Part shown: positions 7,382-32,923 of the stretch, in pieces
Layout of the letters: the number at the start of each line of letters is the position of its first letter
How positions within the stretch are numbered: the stretch's first letter is position 1
Assembly: GCA_024636315.1 (NCBI GenBank)
Contig: JAGXHJ010000060.1
Coordinates: forward strand, 1 to 32,923
DNA: 32,923 nucleotides
Origin: Methylophaga sp.
GTDB lineage: Bacteria; Pseudomonadota; Gammaproteobacteria; Nitrosococcales; Methylophagaceae
Reading direction: 5' to 3'
Translations under genes and position numbers: made by a program
The notes under the pieces: generated by a model
The model's input: only the letters and a program-made list of their open reading frames with translations
What the model was told of the DNA's origin: nothing
Databases searched by the model: none

Positions 7382-8389
7382 ATGATACCGCAATCACACA
7401 ACTTGGTGACAAAACAACCATGGCAAACTGCTTTAGCTAATGCCGTCAAAGAACCTACAGCCCTACTCGCACAACTGGGTTTGTCAGATAAATTACAAGC
7501 AATTGATGCTGATGCCATCAAAAACTTTCCACTGCGTGTACCACAGGCTTATATCAATAAAATGCGCCATGGAGATAAGGACGACCCTTTATTAAGACAA
7601 GTTTTCCCTCTTATAGATGAAGGTTTTGATGTCGCTAATTTTGTTGCCGATCCGGTTGGTGATAATTTAGCGGTGACGTCGCCTGGTATATTACAAAAAT
7701 ATCAAGGCCGTGCATTATTACTGACCACTGGCGCTTGCGCGATTCATTGCCGATATTGTTTTCGTCGGCATTTCCCTTATGGTGACAGTAACCCACTTGC
7801 CAGTCAGTGGCAGCAAACACTGGAAAATATAAGTGAAGATCTGAGTATCAATGAAGTGATTCTCAGTGGCGGTGATCCCCTGTCATTAACGGATAATAAG
7901 CTCGTTAATTTAGTGCATGATCTTGAAAAAATACCTCACCTTAAACGTCTGCGTATACACACACGATTGCCTATAGTTTTACCGGAGCGCGTAGATGAGC
8001 ACTTATTGTCATGGATTGCCGACACTAAGCTACAAGTCGTCATGGTGATTCATGCCAATCATGCTAATGAAATTGACGAATTTGTTGTCCAGGCGCTCAA
8101 TAAATTACGCTTAGCAGGATGCCAGTTGCTTAATCAAACGGTGTTGCTAAAAGGAATTAATGACTCGTCACAAGCTTTATACGACTTAAGCGAACGACTA
8201 AGTGAGGTTGCTGTAATACCCTATTATCTTCACTTGCTTGATAAAGTCAGTGGGGCTAGCCATTTTGACGTTTCAGAACAGCATGGCATTAAATTGATAG
8301 CCCAGATTCGAAAGATGTTGCCTGGCTACCTTGTTCCTCGGCTAGTTCGAGAGCAACAAGGTGAAGCCAGTAAAACAATAATTGCCTAA
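7382..8389 (+). CDS. epmB: EF-P lysine 2,3-aminomutase EpmB (YjeK)
   Basis: A 335-residue radical SAM, PLP-dependent aminomutase that converts (S)-alpha-lysine to (R)-beta-lysine for EF-P. The start MIPQSHN at 7382 gives the E. coli-like length; upstream in-frame codons would run through the efp gene on the other strand. The radical SAM cluster motif is [15 protein letters not shown], with cysteines spaced CxxxCxxC. SGGDPLS follows. [17 protein letters not shown] motif near the C-terminus is expected to include the PLP lysine. EpmB-type enzymes lack the long zinc-binding tail of clostridial lysine aminomutase, as here. Its stop codon overlaps the stop of the convergent citrate synthase gene. 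Confidence 0.95.
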
Positions 8390-9552
8390 TTTCTAGATCG
8401 TTCTATGGCTGGAATATAATCCCGCTCACCACTACCAATATAAATTTGGGTAGGACGATAAATACGATTATCAGAAATTTGTTCTCTCCAGTGAGCTAAC
8501 CAACCAGCGGAACGTGCCACAGCAAACAGAGCAGTAAATTGATCGGCTGGAATTCCCATTTCGGCATATAAAATGCCAGAATAGAAGTCTACATTGGGAT
8601 AAACACCTTTGTGGCCTAATCTGTCTGCACAAATTTCTTCTACTCGCATCGCCGTCTCAAAGGTACTATCTAAGCTACTACCTCGATCCTCAATCAATTC
8701 AGCAACGAGTTGATGCAATATGGTCGCTCGTGGATCTTTTACTTTATATTCACGATGTCCCATACCCCAAATTACTTGTTTATTAGCAAGCGCATTATCA
8801 ATCCATTTTTCAGCTTTATCTGCACTACCAATTTCTTTGAGCATATCGACTACACGAGAATTAGCACCACCATGTAATGGACCTGACAATGTACCAATGG
8901 CACCCGAAATAACACTATAAGGTGTGGCTAATGTAGAACCTGAGACTAAGGCTGAGAACGTCGAGGCATTTAAGGTATGTTCGGCATGCAGGATCAAACA
9001 AACATCCATGATTTTAGCCATCAGAGGATCGGGGTCTTTACCTGTAAACATATAGAGCAAGTTTTCAGCAACCGATAAATCTTCGCGAGGATTAATAGGA
9101 TCATAGCCTCGGCGCATATGCTCCCACATGGCGACTAAAGGTGCCATTGATGCGATGATATTGACAGTCATATTTCGAACGTAATTAAGATCTTGGCAAG
9201 AATCACTACTCGTTAGACATTCATTACCAGGATAAAACATTCCTAGGCTGGATACGGCTGTTTGCAACATATCCATTGGATGACCAGTAGCAGGGAAGTG
9301 ACGCATCATTTCACGAATGTGATATTTAATTCGATACTGACCCCGTAATTGCGTCGTAAAATCTGCCAACTCAGCCGTAGTAGGTAACTCACCCTGAAGT
9401 AATAATAAGGTTGTTTCTTCAAACGTACTATGTTTCGCTAAAGTTTCAATCGAATAACCACGATAAGACAATAAGCCTTTATCACCATCAATATATGATA
9501 TTGCCGACTGCGTAGCGGCTACGCCTTCTAGCCCTGGTAAAAACTCACTCAT
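8386..9552 (-). CDS. Citrate synthase, short type I ('Gram-positive-like') or 2-methylcitrate synthase
   Basis: A 388-residue citrate synthase family enzyme that condenses acetyl-CoA with oxaloacetate. The catalytic triad is visible: His227 (GPLHGGAN), His266 (MGHREYKV) and Asp322 (YPNVDFYSG). The chain is about 40 residues shorter than the hexameric, NADH-inhibited GltA of enterobacteria and lacks its N-terminal allosteric domain, so it belongs to the dimeric type I group. That group also includes 2-methylcitrate synthases, but no prpB, prpD or acn gene is nearby, which favours a citrate role. GAGAGG precedes the ATG, and a promoter is seen at 9605-9634. The 3' end overlaps that of epmB by four bases. 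Confidence 0.92.
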   Translation of the reverse strand: MSEFLPGLEGVAATQSAISYIDGDKGLLSYRGYSIETLAKHSTFEETTLLLLQGELPTTAELADFTTQLRGQYRIKYHIREMMRHFPATGHPMDMLQTAVSSLGMFYPGNECLTSSDSCQDLNYVRNMTVNIIASMAPLVAMWEHMRRGYDPINPREDLSVAENLLYMFTGKDPDPLMAKIMDVCLILHAEHTLNASTFSALVSGSTLATPYSVISGAIGTLSGPLHGGANSRVVDMLKEIGSADKAEKWIDNALANKQVIWGMGHREYKVKDPRATILHQLVAELIEDRGSSLDSTFETAMRVEEICADRLGHKGVYPNVDFYSGILYAEMGIPADQFTALFAVARSAGWLAHWREQISDNRIYRPTQIYIGSGERDYIPAIERSRN

Positions 9553-9711: not shown

Positions 9712-11397
9712 TTAGCCAGTACCTTTGACTATGAACTTAAATTGAGCAAAACCTTCGCTATGCCAAACAGCATCCGCCAGAGTAACCAATAAACGTTCAC
9801 CGTGATGATTTAATTCAATATAATCACCGGTTTTAAATTCTGCGCGGGTTAATAAAAGTGTATCATCCTGCTCGTCGCCAGCTAACCATAATGCATCAAT
9901 CGATACATCATCATTTGTACCCATTTTCTCTACGGTAACCCAGTCGACTTTTGTCGACAAAAGATATAGCCCTACTTTCAATTCTTTATCTGACAAACTC
10001 ATCCAAAGAACCACACCCAGCGTCCACGCAACTGAATTATTCCGCCTTATTATCATTAGTTCGCCAATGCACAAACCATTGCCATGTAGGCTATTACAGC
10101 TAAGACAAACACTTGTTTCACTTTCATTTTCTATCGTAAAATCATGCCGTCTAACGGAAGGTTTCATTCTTTTTTCTGAACGATTTTGTGCCTTATATTG
10201 CATAGATGAGACACTAGATTCATAAAATTGATGTGCATCCCAACTGCTTTCAAGATGTCTTCCCCAACCATTATTAGCTTCTGCGCTTTCATCCTTATTG
10301 ATATCAGGTTGCAAGTCAGCGGTATTATCACTAACAATCGCTCTAACATGTTCTAAAAAAACATGAATATCTTGCAAGCCGATGATAACTTCTACTTGCT
10401 CACCATCACAGTCTAAACGCTGTCTAACAGGCCGTTTAACCACATCTAGCTTCGAGATAAGATGTTTTAATAATTTAGTAGACATGGCTTTATTGTCGGC
10501 TAATTTTGGCACGATGCCAGAGTCTAGCCATGTTTGTAGCTTATTGAGCAACTTACTACTGTCCACTATTAGTGACTTTTTCCCCAGTTTGATTTCATCT
10601 ACATAACTAGGTCCAATATCACTCTGCATTTCAAGAACATACCCAGAATTTTGCTCTTTTATTGTCCTCGTCAGCTTAATGTCGCTCAGCCAAGGTTCTA
10701 AACCAAAATAAACTTGGTCTAATTCTCCGTTACGTAAGCTATAGGGTGAAATAATTGCTAACAATAAAATCCGATGATATAGATTTTCTATCGAGCCTTT
10801 ATTATTCTGATGATATGCAAATTGATCTGTTATTTTTCCATTATTTAACCGGAAATAAAGAGAAAAAGCGTAACTTACATTAAAATCTTTCCATAATTCT
10901 TTAGGTACAGTCGTACTTAATAGGTATGAAACTCGAATTTGTTCACCTAAATAATACATTGTCCTTTGAGCTAATAAGCGATATCTGTTGCGACTAAAAA
11001 AAGATGGTTTCTGTTTAGCTATATTAAATAATAGGCGCTGATATCCAAGAGCCATCCCCATTATCAATTCTCTGGTTAAGAGCTCAAATTCTCGATATTC
11101 TTTTGATAGATATAGGTTTCTACCTCTGATTTGTTTGACTATTGAATCGTATAAATAATCGACAGTAGGTCGTAAACGTTCAAGTATTAAAAATCGTTGA
11201 GCATCTGGTATCGGAAGTCGATTAATTTTGTAAATGTATTGAGGAATTTGAGAAGACAACTGCCGTACATTTAATAACGGCAAACCGCTGAACCATAAAT
11301 CCAGCTGTTTTAAGGTTATAGGAATACCTTTGGTCATTTTAGCATCAAGTAATTCAGGGAGTTGATACCCTAAGAATACCTGTCCGTTAAATGTCAT
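9712..11397 (-). CDS. Large PilZ-like protein, probable c-di-GMP-linked regulator
   Basis: A 561-residue soluble protein of uncertain function. The start at 11397 (MTFNGQ) is preceded by GAGGA at proper spacing; a TTG one codon earlier is too close. The N-terminal 200 residues are helical, with LWFSGLPLLN and a segment rich in Tyr, Leu and Arg. The C-terminal 150 residues resemble a PilZ barrel: a basic KPSVRRHD stretch, then ENESETSVCL where PilZ proteins have (D/N)xSxxG, then IGELMIIRR, WTLGVVLW and LKVGLYLLS strands. The glycine of the DxSxxG motif is replaced, so c-di-GMP binding is doubtful. The family occurs in other beta- and gammaproteobacteria as an uncharacterised protein. It follows the fccB-like gene by 24 bases and is probably the last gene of the operon. 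Confidence 0.6.
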   Translation of the reverse strand: MTFNGQVFLGYQLPELLDAKMTKGIPITLKQLDLWFSGLPLLNVRQLSSQIPQYIYKINRLPIPDAQRFLILERLRPTVDYLYDSIVKQIRGRNLYLSKEYREFELLTRELIMGMALGYQRLLFNIAKQKPSFFSRNRYRLLAQRTMYYLGEQIRVSYLLSTTVPKELWKDFNVSYAFSLYFRLNNGKITDQFAYHQNNKGSIENLYHRILLLAIISPYSLRNGELDQVYFGLEPWLSDIKLTRTIKEQNSGYVLEMQSDIGPSYVDEIKLGKKSLIVDSSKLLNKLQTWLDSGIVPKLADNKAMSTKLLKHLISKLDVVKRPVRQRLDCDGEQVEVIIGLQDIHVFLEHVRAIVSDNTADLQPDINKDESAEANNGWGRHLESSWDAHQFYESSVSSMQYKAQNRSEKRMKPSVRRHDFTIENESETSVCLSCNSLHGNGLCIGELMIIRRNNSVAWTLGVVLWMSLSDKELKVGLYLLSTKVDWVTVEKMGTNDDVSIDALWLAGDEQDDTLLLTRAEFKTGDYIELNHHGERLLVTLADAVWHSEGFAQFKFIVKGTG

Positions 11398-11421
11398 CAA
11401 GATTCCTCAGCACGAAAAATA

Positions 11422-12693
11422 CTATTTCAAGATATCATGCCAAATGTTATTAGCCCACGCATTTGCGTATACACCCTCAAGTATTGAAGCTTGGTCTGAT
11501 ACTCCACCACCCGGCATAGCTATCATAGCTTGCTGTTGCTTATCATAACGATATACAGCTGCAACATGGCCAGCTTGCTGAGCATCAATAAAGCTATAAC
11601 ACGTGTTACTAAATACAGGTTGTTGTTCCGGCTCCGATTGAGCTAATAGTGATGCTATTGCTGCCGCACACACTTTTGCTTGTGCATTGGCTATGTGACC
11701 TGACTTAGGCAATACGGCGTGTACGGCATCTCCAATAACATGCACATTATTTTTAACTTTTGATTCATAAGTTAAAAAATCAACCTCACACCAACGTTGG
11801 TCAATATTGATGACACCCGCCAATTCAGCTACTTTTCCTGCTCTTTGTGGTGGGATCACATTTAACACATCCGCAGAAAATTGATTAAATTCAGTATCAA
11901 TCGTTAATTTCGCTACATTGACACTATCAATCATGCTACTTGGGACATAGTCAATCAAGCCTGCATAATGCTCTTGCCATGCACCTTTAAATAGGGCTTT
12001 TTTAGAGGCAACATCACCATTAGCATCTAAGATAATTAATTTTCCACTAGGGTTATGATTTTTTAAGTAAAGCGCTATCTGACATGCGCGTTCATAAGGT
12101 CCAGGCGGGCAGCGAAAAGGGGTTGGTGGAACAGTCATTATCACGGTTCCACCTTTTTTCATACTCACTAACTGTTGTTTTAATATTGTAGTTTGCGAAC
12201 CTGCTTTCCATGCATGGGGCACAATTTTTTGGGCATCATGGCTTGCCAACATCGGCAGGTCGTCATAAATAAAATCAACACCTGGTGCAATGACTAGACG
12301 ATCATAGCTCACGACAACTCCGTCATGTAGCGTTACTTGTTGCTTTTCGGTATCAATCGCCACCACTTCAGCTTGTACCGTTTTCACATCATATTTATCG
12401 GCCAGTCCATTGTAATCATAAGTAAGCTGTTGCAAAGTGCGGCTACCACTCAATACCAGATTACTCTGAGGACATGAAACAAACTGAGCATTTCGCTCAA
12501 TCATTATCACCTCAGTTCCAGGAGACCACATTTTGAGATATTTGGCCGCCGTAGCACCAGCAAAACCACCGCCAATAACCACTACACGTTGCGATATAGC
12601 TGACTTTTTAGCTGCTAATGCCAGTTTAGGTAGCATTGCCAAGGAACCCGCAGTAATTGCTGTTTTAATAAAACTTCTACGTTTTAAAGCCAT
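11422..12693 (-). CDS. Tat-exported flavocytochrome c sulfide dehydrogenase-type flavoprotein (FccB/SoxF-like)
   Basis: A 423-residue FAD-dependent oxidoreductase of the sulfide:quinone/flavocytochrome c group. These enzymes oxidise sulfide or polysulfide in the periplasm. The N-terminus KRRSFIK is a twin-arginine signal with a cut near ALA-A at 25-28, so the protein is exported folded with FAD. The Rossmann motif VVVIGGGFAGATAAKYL starts at residue 37, and HVIGDAVH is the second FAD-contact motif. Cys195 (in RCPPGPYERAC) and Cys365 (in NTCYS) match the spacing of the redox disulfide of Allochromatium FccB. Further motifs are SCPQSN and a C-terminal region typical of the family. No cytochrome c subunit gene (fccA) is adjacent. 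It lies 27 bases after lipA with AGAGG before the ATG. Confidence 0.85.
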   Translation of the reverse strand: MALKRRSFIKTAITAGSLAMLPKLALAAKKSAISQRVVVIGGGFAGATAAKYLKMWSPGTEVIMIERNAQFVSCPQSNLVLSGSRTLQQLTYDYNGLADKYDVKTVQAEVVAIDTEKQQVTLHDGVVVSYDRLVIAPGVDFIYDDLPMLASHDAQKIVPHAWKAGSQTTILKQQLVSMKKGGTVIMTVPPTPFRCPPGPYERACQIALYLKNHNPSGKLIILDANGDVASKKALFKGAWQEHYAGLIDYVPSSMIDSVNVAKLTIDTEFNQFSADVLNVIPPQRAGKVAELAGVINIDQRWCEVDFLTYESKVKNNVHVIGDAVHAVLPKSGHIANAQAKVCAAAIASLLAQSEPEQQPVFSNTCYSFIDAQQAGHVAAVYRYDKQQQAMIAMPGGGVSDQASILEGVYANAWANNIWHDILK

Positions 12694-12720
12694 AACAATA
12701 AACCTCTTAAAGACTACCCT

Positions 12721-13677
12721 CTAAGATACGTGTTCTCCTTGCGCTTGTAAATCAGCATGATATGACGATCTAACCATTGGCCCACTAGCCACATGTTCAA
12801 AGCCCATCTGTTTAGCAACAACGGCCAGTTGATCAAATTCCGCAGGTGTTACAAAACGCTCTACCGCCAAGTGATGTCGGCTGGGTTGTAAGTATTGGCC
12901 TAAGGTTAACATCCGACAACCATGATCACGCAAATCCTGCATTACTTGCTGTACTTCTTCCAGCGTTTCACCAAGTCCCAACATCAAACCCGATTTAGTT
13001 GGCACTTCGGGATGCAGTTGCTGAAACCTTTTAATCAAATCTAGTGACCATTGATAATCTGAACCAGGTCTAACCGCTTTATAAAGGCGAGGAATACTTT
13101 CTAAATTATGATTAAAAATATCCGGCGGGCATTTCGATAATTCAACTAAAGCCACATCCATACGTCCACGAAAGTCGGGAACAAGTACTTCAATTCGCGT
13201 ATTGGGTGATTGTTTACGTATTTCAGCGATACATTGGGTGAAATGAGTAGACCCTCCATCTCGTAAATCATCTCGATCCACCGATGTCACGACGACATGC
13301 TTCAGTTGCATAGCCGCAATCGTTTTAGCTAAATGCTCAGGCTCATTGGCATCAAGAGGATCAGGCTTGCCATGTGCGACATCGCAAAAGGGGCAGCGTC
13401 GAGTACAGATATTACCCATAATCAAAAATGTGGCGGTGCCATGGGTAAAACATTCACCTAAATTTGGGCATGAGGCTTCTTCGCATACGGTATGTAGCTC
13501 ATTTTCGCGTAGCAGTTCTTTTAAACGAATGACCTCAGGACTACTCGGTGCTTTCGCTCTGATCCAAGCAGGTTTGCGTTTAGGTTCGCTAGGTATTATT
13601 TTTATAGGGATGCGAGATACTTTGGATGCACCTTTCAGTGCACTAACATCACGTTTTAGCTGTACTTTTTCGGTCAT
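12721..13677 (-). CDS. lipA: Lipoyl synthase
   Basis: A 318-residue radical SAM enzyme that inserts two sulfurs into octanoyl groups on lipoyl-domain proteins. The auxiliary cluster cysteines are Cys65, Cys70 and Cys76 ([12 protein letters not shown]). The radical SAM cluster is Cys91, Cys95 and Cys98 (CTRRCPFC). The C-terminal RSSYHA motif (from about 303) supplies the serine ligand of the auxiliary cluster, which is consumed as sulfur donor. The gene overlaps the 3' end of lipB by four bases, a sign of translational coupling, and takes over the octanoylated product of LipB. It is followed by the fccB-like gene with only 27 bases between. Confidence 0.98.
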
Positions 13678-28640: not shown

Positions 28641-29864
28641 ATGTCTGGTTCATTCTCCAATAATGCTCCCATAGTTGCCAGACAAGCAATCTTCGATAAA
28701 GATTTGAATGTCTATGCCTATGAGCTACTGTTTCGTAGCAGCAACAAACTATCAGTCTCGGGGGGCACGGATTCTTTCGGTGATGAAGCTACCAGCCGCG
28801 TAATCAATCATACTTTTCTGGAATTAGGCATTGAGCGTGTTATTGGAAATCATCTCGCTTTTGTCAATTTAACCCGTAAATTTATCTTGACCGATGATCC
28901 TCTACCATTTGCTCAAGATCGCGTCATATTAGAAATACTTGAAGATATAGTAGCTGATGATGAACTCATTGCTGCTACCCAAAAATTAGTTGATCAAGGT
29001 TACATTATTGCCTTAGATGATTTTGTCTTTGATGAATCCTTAAGACCATTAGTTCAATTAGCTCAGATCGTTAAAATTGACCTATTGGCCTTCAGTGAAC
29101 AAGCGCTTAAAGAACAGGTAACATTATTAAAACAAGAAAATGTCAAACTGCTTGCGGAAAAAGTAGAAACCCAAGAACAGTACCTTCTATGTAAACAATT
29201 AGGCTTTGATTATTTTCAGGGCTATTTTTTTAGTCGTCCCACCATTGTCGAAGGTCAAGCCATACCAGATAGCCAGCTTAACTTGCTTTCCATTATCACA
29301 AAACTACAAAACAACGATGTAGAGATTGATGATATTGAACAGTTGATCAGCCAAGATGTAGGTCTCACATATAAATTGCTTAGATTACTCAACTCTGCAG
29401 CCATAGGACTACCCAGAAAGATAGAGTCTATTAAACAAGCTCTTATTTTATTAGGCCTCAAAGCTATTAGAACATGGACAACATTAATTGCCCTTAATGA
29501 TATGAAATGTACTCCACCCGAATTAATGGCTAACACTCTTATTCGAGCTAAAATGTGTGAGCAGTTAGCCGCAGATTATAATTGCTCAGCTGAAACAGGA
29601 TTTTTAGTGGGTTTATTTTCAACTATTGACGCCATGTTATCGCATCCTATGCATAAGCTCTTAAAATCATTACCTTTAAATGACGATATCAAGCAAGCAC
29701 TGTCCGGTCGTCATGGGAACTTAGGGGATTTACTAAACGTGGTCATTCAATATGAACATGGTTTATGGGATGCAGTTGACACTAAACTAGTATCGCTGGA
29801 ACAGCTAGGACAGCATTACATAAATGCCACCGAGTGGACCATACAAACTCAATCGAATTTATAA
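28641..29864 (+). CDS. EAL-HDOD signalling protein (YuxH/CdgJ-like)
   Basis: A 407-residue cytoplasmic regulator. The N-terminal half (about 10-210) is an EAL-like domain with YELLFR in place of the EALxR motif, followed by FVNLTRKF, LEILEDI, ALDDFVF, VKIDLL, AEKVET and FDYFQGYFFS. The C-terminal half (about 212-400) is an HDOD domain: LISQDVGLTYKLLRLLNSAAIGLPRKIESIKQAL is diagnostic. EAL-HDOD proteins usually lack phosphodiesterase activity and act as regulators of motility or biofilm, as CdgJ does in Vibrio. Here several metal-binding positions of active EAL domains remain, so activity cannot be excluded. It ends seven bases before an ABC transporter operon. Confidence 0.92.
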   Translation: MSGSFSNNAPIVARQAIFDKDLNVYAYELLFRSSNKLSVSGGTDSFGDEATSRVINHTFLELGIERVIGNHLAFVNLTRKFILTDDPLPFAQDRVILEILEDIVADDELIAATQKLVDQGYIIALDDFVFDESLRPLVQLAQIVKIDLLAFSEQALKEQVTLLKQENVKLLAEKVETQEQYLLCKQLGFDYFQGYFFSRPTIVEGQAIPDSQLNLLSIITKLQNNDVEIDDIEQLISQDVGLTYKLLRLLNSAAIGLPRKIESIKQALILLGLKAIRTWTTLIALNDMKCTPPELMANTLIRAKMCEQLAADYNCSAETGFLVGLFSTIDAMLSHPMHKLLKSLPLNDDIKQALSGRHGNLGDLLNVVIQYEHGLWDAVDTKLVSLEQLGQHYINATEWTIQTQSNL

Positions 29865-31575: not shown

Positions 31576-32923
31576 ATGAACATCACTCAAAAAATACAGC
31601 GCCAACTTAAACTACAAAACATCATTTTTTATATACTGGTGATTATTGTGGTTGCGCTATTAGCACAGCTCTCACTTAAAACAAATATCCGTAGTGATTG
31701 GACGGCAAACAACCGCCATAGCCTTTCCGATACCACCACCAATTTTCTAACTCAGCTTAATCAAACTATCACTATTCAGGCTTTCATCAGCCCAAGTAGC
31801 GAATATCGCCCTGCTTTAGAATCGTTGCTTACAAGCTACCAAAGTTATAATGCTCAACTAAATGTCAGCTATATCAACCCAGACTTCTCGCCCGACTTAG
31901 TTCGTGAACTCAAGATCCAACAGCAAGGTGAAATGGTTATCTCGCGTGGTGACAAACAAACACACGTCTTTGATCTCTCTGAGCAATCGTTAACTAATGC
32001 ACTCATCACCGTCTCACGGCAACAACAACAATGGCTAATTTTTATCGAAGGTCATGGTGAACGTAGCCCGCTTAATTCAGCTAATTACAACCTCAGTGTT
32101 TGGGGCGATCAACTCAAGCAAAAGGGCTTTAAATTCCTACCACTAAATTTGGTTGAAAATAATCAAATTCCTAATAATGCGACTGCCGTTGTGATTGCTA
32201 GTCCTGAAAGTGCGTGGTTGGATGGTGAAATTGATATCATCAAAGATTATGTTGCTAATGGCGGCAATTTACTCTGGTTAGCCGAACCAGATAGTAATCA
32301 ATTCTTAGCTAGACTAGCCGAACAACTCGAACTAGAATTTATACCCAGTATTGTTATAGATCCTAATGCCCAAAAATTTGGTATCAACGATCCACAATTT
32401 GTGTTGATTACAGATTATGCTAATCATCCTATCGGGCAGGCGACCTCGGGCGTAACGGTCTTCCCGCAAGCCATGGCCATCGAACAGATTCCAAATGACC
32501 ATGTTGATTGGGAATATCTGCCACTATTAACCACCCAAGCTAATGTCTGGAGTGAGACAACGCTCCCTAAGAAAGGAGCTGTACAACCTTTTGTTTTCAA
32601 TCTTGGTGATGATACTCAAGGTCCACTTAATATAGGCTATTTACTTTCACGCACAATGACCAAGAATGAAAAAAATACCGAACAACGCATCGCCGTCATT
32701 GGTGATGGTGATTTTTTATCCAACACCTATCTCGGCAACGGAAGTAATCTTGAGCTTGGGATGGCGACAATGAACTGGTTGGCTGGCGACGATGCGCTAA
32801 TCAGCATTCCGGTCAAAACCACCCTAGATAATCAACTAGAATTAAACCAAACTCAGTCCCTAGTTATAGGCATCGGCTTTTTAATTGTGATGCCTTTAAT
32901 ATTACTTGGCATTGGATTAAGCC
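31576..32923 (+). CDS. GldG-like ABC auxiliary protein, C-terminus cut by window end
   Basis: Open for 449 codons to the window edge. An N-terminal membrane helix (about 18-35, IFYILVIIVVALLAQLSL) is followed by a periplasmic region with RHSLSDTT and QAFISPSSEYR, then FIEGHGERSP, and DYVANGGNLLWLAEP, all typical of GldG/DUF4350-type proteins. A second membrane helix begins near the edge (SLVIGIGFLIVMPLILLGIGL). The protein is probably nearly complete. It starts one base after the permease stop. A DUF4340 gene often follows in this family and may lie beyond the window. Confidence 0.88.
   Translation, partial: MNITQKIQRQLKLQNIIFYILVIIVVALLAQLSLKTNIRSDWTANNRHSLSDTTTNFLTQLNQTITIQAFISPSSEYRPALESLLTSYQSYNAQLNVSYINPDFSPDLVRELKIQQQGEMVISRGDKQTHVFDLSEQSLTNALITVSRQQQQWLIFIEGHGERSPLNSANYNLSVWGDQLKQKGFKFLPLNLVENNQIPNNATAVVIASPESAWLDGEIDIIKDYVANGGNLLWLAEPDSNQFLARLAEQLELEFIPSIVIDPNAQKFGINDPQFVLITDYANHPIGQATSGVTVFPQAMAIEQIPNDHVDWEYLPLLTTQANVWSETTLPKKGAVQPFVFNLGDDTQGPLNIGYLLSRTMTKNEKNTEQRIAVIGDGDFLSNTYLGNGSNLELGMATMNWLAGDDALISIPVKTTLDNQLELNQTQSLVIGIGFLIVMPLILLGIGLS

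Follow-up and report, generated by a model that had tools for sequence, protein, structure and literature searches.

An FCSD flavoprotein gene, fccB, between lipA and gltA in the Methylophagaceae and its probable cytochrome partner encoded about 22 kb away

Gene row around fccB

The stretch of DNA analysed here (32.9 kb, hereafter the window) is the entire contig C88 of a Methylophagaceae MAG, G000 (2.36 Mb in 113 contigs, 88% complete). Its minus strand carries a row of genes in the order rlpA, dacC, a D-amino-acid-transaminase-like gene, a DUF493-type gene, lipB, lipA, fccB, a PilZ-like gene, and gltA (Table 1). The names rlpA, dacC, and DUF493 are presumptive, assigned from the look of the sequences. 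The PilZ-like gene and gltA are 159 bases apart. Upstream in the window (28641-29864) lies a gene with HDOD and EAL parts, which possibly encodes a c-di-GMP regulator or a regulator with a degenerate EAL part.

Table 1. Features of the fccB locus and of the window end (coordinates of the window)
Feature	Position	Strand	Basis or remark
gltA, citrate synthase; 3' flank	8386..9552	-	NCBIfam PRK14036 over cut-off
PilZ-like gene; start codon TTG 11400 (562 aa) or ATG 11397	9712..11400	-	ORF; hhalign to PilZ
fccB, FCSD flavoprotein subunit, 423 aa, Tat-type N terminus	11422..12693	-	Pfam, PDB sequence search, Cys195/Cys365
lipA-fccB gap, 27 bases	12694..12720	-	AAGAGG ribosome-site-like stretch (by eye)
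lipA, lipoyl synthase; 5' neighbour of fccB	12721..13677	-	Pfam Radical_SAM + LIAS_N
Window end overlapping the end of contig C104 (L130)	31894..32923	.	1030 ungapped bases, 90.9% identical

An earlier, sequence-only reading of this DNA described lipA, fccB, and the PilZ-like gene as closely spaced, co-directional, and free of an intervening terminator, and the description proved accurate. All three genes lie on the minus strand, the 27-base spacing of lipA and fccB is exact, and the spacing of 24 bases given for fccB and the PilZ-like gene holds from the ATG start codon of the latter (21 bases from the TTG). A sequence scan found nothing terminator-like in either gap. The same scan bears on the internal promoter and terminator that could isolate the genes from each other: promoter-like sites overlap both gaps, including one 9/12 site at 12751-12723 in the lipA-fccB gap region, but the 24 such sites in the scanned region, against 27.7 expected from shuffles, are at the chance level.

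The fccB product was identified by Pfam (FCSD_central, E 5e-44; FCSD-flav_bind, E 3e-20), and its matches to PF21706, PF09242, and PF07992 (FCSD central, C-terminal flavin-binding, and FAD Rossmann, respectively) all exceed the cut-off. Among solved structures, the protein is closest to the FCSD flavoproteins 5n1t_A, 1fcd_A, and 3vrd_B, all with E below 1e-94. The two cysteines reported as kept, Cys195 and Cys365, are invariant in all 37 of the 37 aligned FccB sequences, and we take them to be the redox pair of 1fcd on the basis of the aligned FRCPPGP and TCYS motifs. The N terminus shows, by eye, a twin-arginine motif (KRRSFIK) and a hydrophobic stretch. The assignment of a Tat-type FCSD flavoprotein gene 3' of lipA was thus borne out, with its identity given by Pfam and PDB and its Tat motif by eye. 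In the comparison with the closest relative, the dN/dS values were 0.086 for fccB, 0.020 for lipA, 0.029 for gltA, and 0.175 for the PilZ-like gene, and fccB is under purifying selection.

An identity of FccB as an SQR was rejected, with the best model, NF049943, reaching 88 bits against a cut-off of 525. An insertion in the FccB of one relative (G031), taken at first as a fused domain, turned out to be a run of N. In three other loci, L160 (G015), L080 (G031), and L155 (G039), FccB has an N-terminal cysteine after a stretch that resembles a lipobox by eye, and some FccB proteins may be Tat lipoproteins.

Gene order across the family

FCSD-type fccB was found in 45 of the 57 Methylophagaceae genomes surveyed, counting two copies cut at contig ends (G019 and G004) and the copy interrupted by N (G031); lipA was present in 55. 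The gap between lipA and fccB does not exceed 100 nt in 36 of the 45 genomes and measures 249-379 nt in three (G020, G036, and G054). Distances of 2.2 and 6.4 kb separate the two genes in G030 and G039, and they lie on separate contigs in three (G008, G015, and G028), where other genes precede fccB; no lipA was found in the remaining one, G026. On the other side, fccB is followed by a co-directional gltA in 43 of the 45, and the two misses, G004 and G019, are contig ends. Among the 12 genomes lacking fccB, gltA comes next after lipA in nine, at a spacing of 121-375 nt. The other three could not be judged: in G051 and G052 the one gltA-type gene is a distant paralogue, and G056 lacks both lipA and gltA. 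Named relatives of fccB with the same surroundings come from Methylophaga, M. thiooxydans DMS010 among them, and from MAGs labelled as Methylophagaceae or as unclassified gammaproteobacteria.

The lipA-fccB-gltA arrangement is therefore family-wide, and fccB is a removable gene within a housekeeping row, because its link to lipA is broken or loosened in five genomes and lipA meets gltA directly in nine of the genomes lacking fccB. Of the lipA-fccB-pilZ order that the earlier reading advised looking for in relatives, the first part is kept, whereas the PilZ-like gene is intact in 15 of the 45 genomes.

Could the pairing of lipA and fccB nevertheless be functional, such that growth that releases sulfide also raises the demand for lipoate enzymes and the two genes are co-regulated? 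The short gap in most of the fccB genomes favors this, as do the proteins of M. thiooxydans on DMS, among which dihydrolipoamide dehydrogenase rose 7.67-fold, acetyltransferase 7.50-fold, and FccB 1.67-fold in the part of PMC6548844 available to us. Apart from the rise of the two former enzymes, nothing hinting at a lipoate link was encountered. However, the pairing is broken or loosened in G008, G015, G028, G030, and G039 and lengthened in three further genomes, lipA stays by gltA where fccB is lacking, and synteny within one family suffices to explain what is seen. LipA is, moreover, a cytoplasmic housekeeping enzyme, whereas FccB is periplasmic. We regard a functional pairing as unlikely, and the link of fccB to lipoate and cell-wall genes that the earlier reading had found unexpected lacks support as a functional tie, fccB being separable from lipA.

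The cytochrome partner and the electron route

FCSD acts on sulfide in the periplasm, oxidizing it to polysulfide or sulfur, and its haem subunit receives the electrons. On three contigs of MAGs with betaproteobacterial names (Methylotenera, Methylophilus, and Glaciimonas), fccB is preceded, at a distance of 15-25 bases, by a gene for a small monohaem cytochrome, and the product of the gene directly 5' of fccB in the Methylophilus MAG was used as the FccA query. In 43 of the 57 genomes the query found a single strong match each, with E no higher than 2.8e-19; the next matches, which are other cytochromes, were at 1.4e-15 and weaker. In 27 genomes fccA and fccB are on one contig, always on the same strand with fccA upstream, at distances of 19.0-29.4 kb, and the remaining 14 pairs are on separate contigs. 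The match in G000 is on contig C104, where fccA stands alone between genes that we take to be rluD and mutM. The three top solved relatives of this FccA are 5n1t_B, 3vrd_A, and 1fcd_C, two of which are named FCSD haem subunits, the third being the cytochrome chain of an FCSD entry. The protein is monohaem, with a single CAACHG haem site.

The window shows no FccA because its contig ends about 20 kb upstream of fccB, short of the fccA position. C104 and the window contig both align to one contig of the relative G006, and the end of C104 reaches 1030 bases into the window end. In window-equivalent coordinates, fccA of C104 maps to about 34.7-34.9 kb on the minus strand, which would put the gene 2 kb past the window edge, at a distance of about 22 kb from fccB on the upstream side. 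As the overlap is 90.9% rather than 100% identical, C104 and the window contig probably represent related populations in one bin. That the strain of the window has its own fccA is what we infer from relatives such as G006, in which both genes are on one contig.

The absence of a cytochrome gene nearby, pointed out in the sequence-only reading, thus holds for the 32.9-kb contig and dissolves as a puzzle, because the contig stops before the fccA position. The search for fccA elsewhere in the genome, which that reading advised, gave the strong match on C104. Nor need the electron acceptor count as unknown, as that reading had it, given an FccA that matches, lies about 22 kb upstream in relatives, and co-occurs with FccB. 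The cytochrome is very probably not missing.

Among the 57 genomes, both genes occur in 41, fccA only in two, fccB only in four, and neither in ten, counts that are phylogenetically non-independent, with only about two loss events behind them, and for which Fisher p-values overstate the case. For genomes at least 90% complete, the corresponding numbers are 30, 0, 1, and 6. The two genomes with fccA only are 83-85% complete, and those with fccB and no strong fccA match are G031 (97% complete, with the run of N in its fccB) and three less complete genomes. Five genomes lacking fccB have rluD and mutM in the same neighborhood, and no fccA match falls between the two. On a midpoint-rooted tree of lipA and gltA from 48 genomes, eight of the nine fccB-lacking genomes form part of one clade with a support of 100, and the ninth, G029, adjoins two fccB-bearing genomes of its genus. 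It appears that fccA and fccB were lost together at least twice, or else gained together. The partnership of FccA and FccB is supported because genes about 21 kb apart come or go together.

Alternatively, FccB might act without FccA, as the unknown acceptor of the earlier reading would suggest, with quinone or a cytochrome c of general use in methylotrophs taking its electrons directly. The window contig, in which no cytochrome gene was recognized, and the four genomes with fccB and no strong fccA would fit such a route. Against it, FccA is found in 41 of the 45 fccB genomes and upstream at the distance given above wherever linkage is visible, it is absent along with fccB in ten genomes, the solved proteins closest to it are FCSD cytochrome chains, and the best SQR-type model stays far below its cut-off. 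An FccA-free route is, in our judgment, very improbable. We instead consider it highly likely that FccB serves as the flavoprotein subunit in an ordinary periplasmic FCSD whose two subunit genes are split.

The structures 5n1t and 1fcd, presumably FccAB of Thioalkalivibrio paradoxus and Allochromatium vinosum, respectively, are similar to the proteins described here in the FccB domains, redox cysteines, and length, and 5n1t_B is the best match of FccA. The Methylophagaceae differ in that the subunit genes are about 22 kb apart and not adjacent as in the betaproteobacterial relatives, and in that FccA has one haem site, as opposed to the 174-residue cytochrome chain of 1fcd, which is dihaem. 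FCSD in Methylophaga has already been published, with MDMS009_2035 as FccB and MDMS009_753 as FccA of M. thiooxydans DMS010 (PMC6548844, in the part available to us). This strain shares the locus (L065, G045), with the lipA-fccB-gltA order and fccA 21.8 kb upstream, but unlike the window it has no PilZ-like gene between fccB and gltA. We take MDMS009_753 to be the fccA gene at that distance from fccB.

Judged from the genes, the enzyme activity, electron route, and co-transcription would be as follows. FccB would be exported by Tat in its folded form with FAD, and sulfide would attack the Cys195-Cys365 disulfide. Two electrons would then pass via FAD, with the sulfur released as polysulfide or S0, and would move on through the single haem of FccA and a soluble cytochrome c to a terminal oxidase. 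In this family the subunit genes are split on the same strand, with fccA alone between rluD and mutM and fccB between lipA and gltA. Co-transcription of the row is plausible: where the gap is short, fccB would probably be transcribed by read-through from the lipB-lipA transcript, and in the genomes where it is separated from lipA it would need its own promoter. Between fccB and gltA, the PilZ-like gene is an optional passenger, and its c-di-GMP-binding residues have been lost.

As to the origin of the sulfide, growth on methylated sulfur compounds might release it through a periplasmic methanethiol oxidase, and FCSD might serve to clear it. This route was proposed for M. thiooxydans, with methanethiol-derived sulfide as the substrate of the FccB that rises on DMS (PMC6548844, in the part available to us). 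M. thiooxydans has two methanethiol oxidases, whereas none was found in G000, where PF05694 gave no match in an assembly that is 88% complete. Furthermore, fccB is present in 40 of the 45 family genomes lacking mtoX compared to 5 of the 12 bearing it, although the clades are not independent. Across the Methylophagaceae genomes, mtoX and fccB tend toward mutual exclusion. The methanethiol route seems very doubtful for this organism, and environmental sulfide is the more likely source here, because no methanethiol oxidase was found and the two genes tend to exclude each other.

The PilZ-like gene and the meaning of the split locus

The PilZ-like gene between fccB and gltA is intact in 15 of the 45 fccB genomes, broken in one (G008), and present in none of the 12 lacking fccB; it is a member of the locus here and not a constant one. 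The broken copy (G008:C85; L041 and L158) has six in-frame stops between an intact fccB and an intact gltA. The window protein gave no match in Pfam, NCBIfam, or PDB, none of the 23 aligned members matched PF07238, and the family profile found nothing in PDB at E up to 1. PF07238 does match six places in G000, and the PilZ-like locus is not among them.

The protein consists of a helical N-terminal part, a half-motif at 324-328, a long variable stretch, and a second motif at 425-430, with both motifs degenerate. In the aligned members, [D/N]xSxxG is found in 19 of 23, RxxxR in 13 of 23, and both in 11 of 23, again with the long variable stretch between them. The window copy reads P-VRQ-R in the RxxxR position (P324 for the first R) and NESETS for [D/N]xSxxG, so that neither is intact. 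In hhalign against 24 PilZ domains, the probability was 40% as is and 84% without residues 353-415, which were left out only after the motifs had been seen; N-terminal controls stayed below 1%. A structure model built from two sequences has a mean pLDDT of 39 and an all-beta C-terminal part. The family shares with PilZ (PF07238) the motif pair, common to many members, and the profile-profile similarity, and differs in the interrupting variable stretch, the helical N-terminal part, and the lack of a Pfam match. The protein is probably PilZ-derived and has probably lost c-di-GMP binding. The c-di-GMP link considered possible in the earlier reading is unsupported for the window copy, with both motifs lost and the Pfam PilZ model failing.

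Relatives of the gene lie by epmB in four genomes from other families of the class (L048-L051), three of which also have efp there. In the window, epmB lies directly beyond gltA, in an orientation that differs from the arrangement in those genomes. These relatives faintly suggest that the PilZ-like gene may owe its position to an old neighborhood and not to any tie with sulfide.

A joint reading can be drawn up, in which the split genes mark an FccB made from the lipoate/citrate-synthase block, whereby sulfide oxidation is coupled to central carbon flux, and in which the PilZ-like protein represents an undescribed PilZ-derived family (helical N-terminal part, interrupted motif pair), with c-di-GMP motifs kept in some relatives and lost here, that acts ligand-free on the same process; we give this little credence. 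It is, finally, scarcely credible that the protein acts as a c-di-GMP receptor in control of the sulfide enzyme or of cell-envelope genes: the 11 aligned members with both motifs and the restriction of the gene at this locus to genomes with fccB (16 of the 45, and none of the 12 lacking it) are outweighed by a window copy with neither motif intact, the failure of PF07238 here against its six matching places elsewhere in G000, the 29 of 45 fccB genomes with no copy at the locus and the broken one in G008, and the four distant genomes in which the relatives adjoin epmB and not fccB.

Neither PMC6548844 nor PMC5328954, in the parts available to us, contains a description of the split fccA/fccB spacing or of the PilZ-like gene, and the present analysis flags the latter as an unannotated PilZ-related family. 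The seemingly orphan FccB is resolved, its partner lying about 22 kb off and being kept or lost with it. Searches that expect an adjacent fccA would score these methylotrophs as incomplete in sulfide oxidation. The sulfur metabolism is otherwise ordinary, in a family for which FCSD has already been reported.
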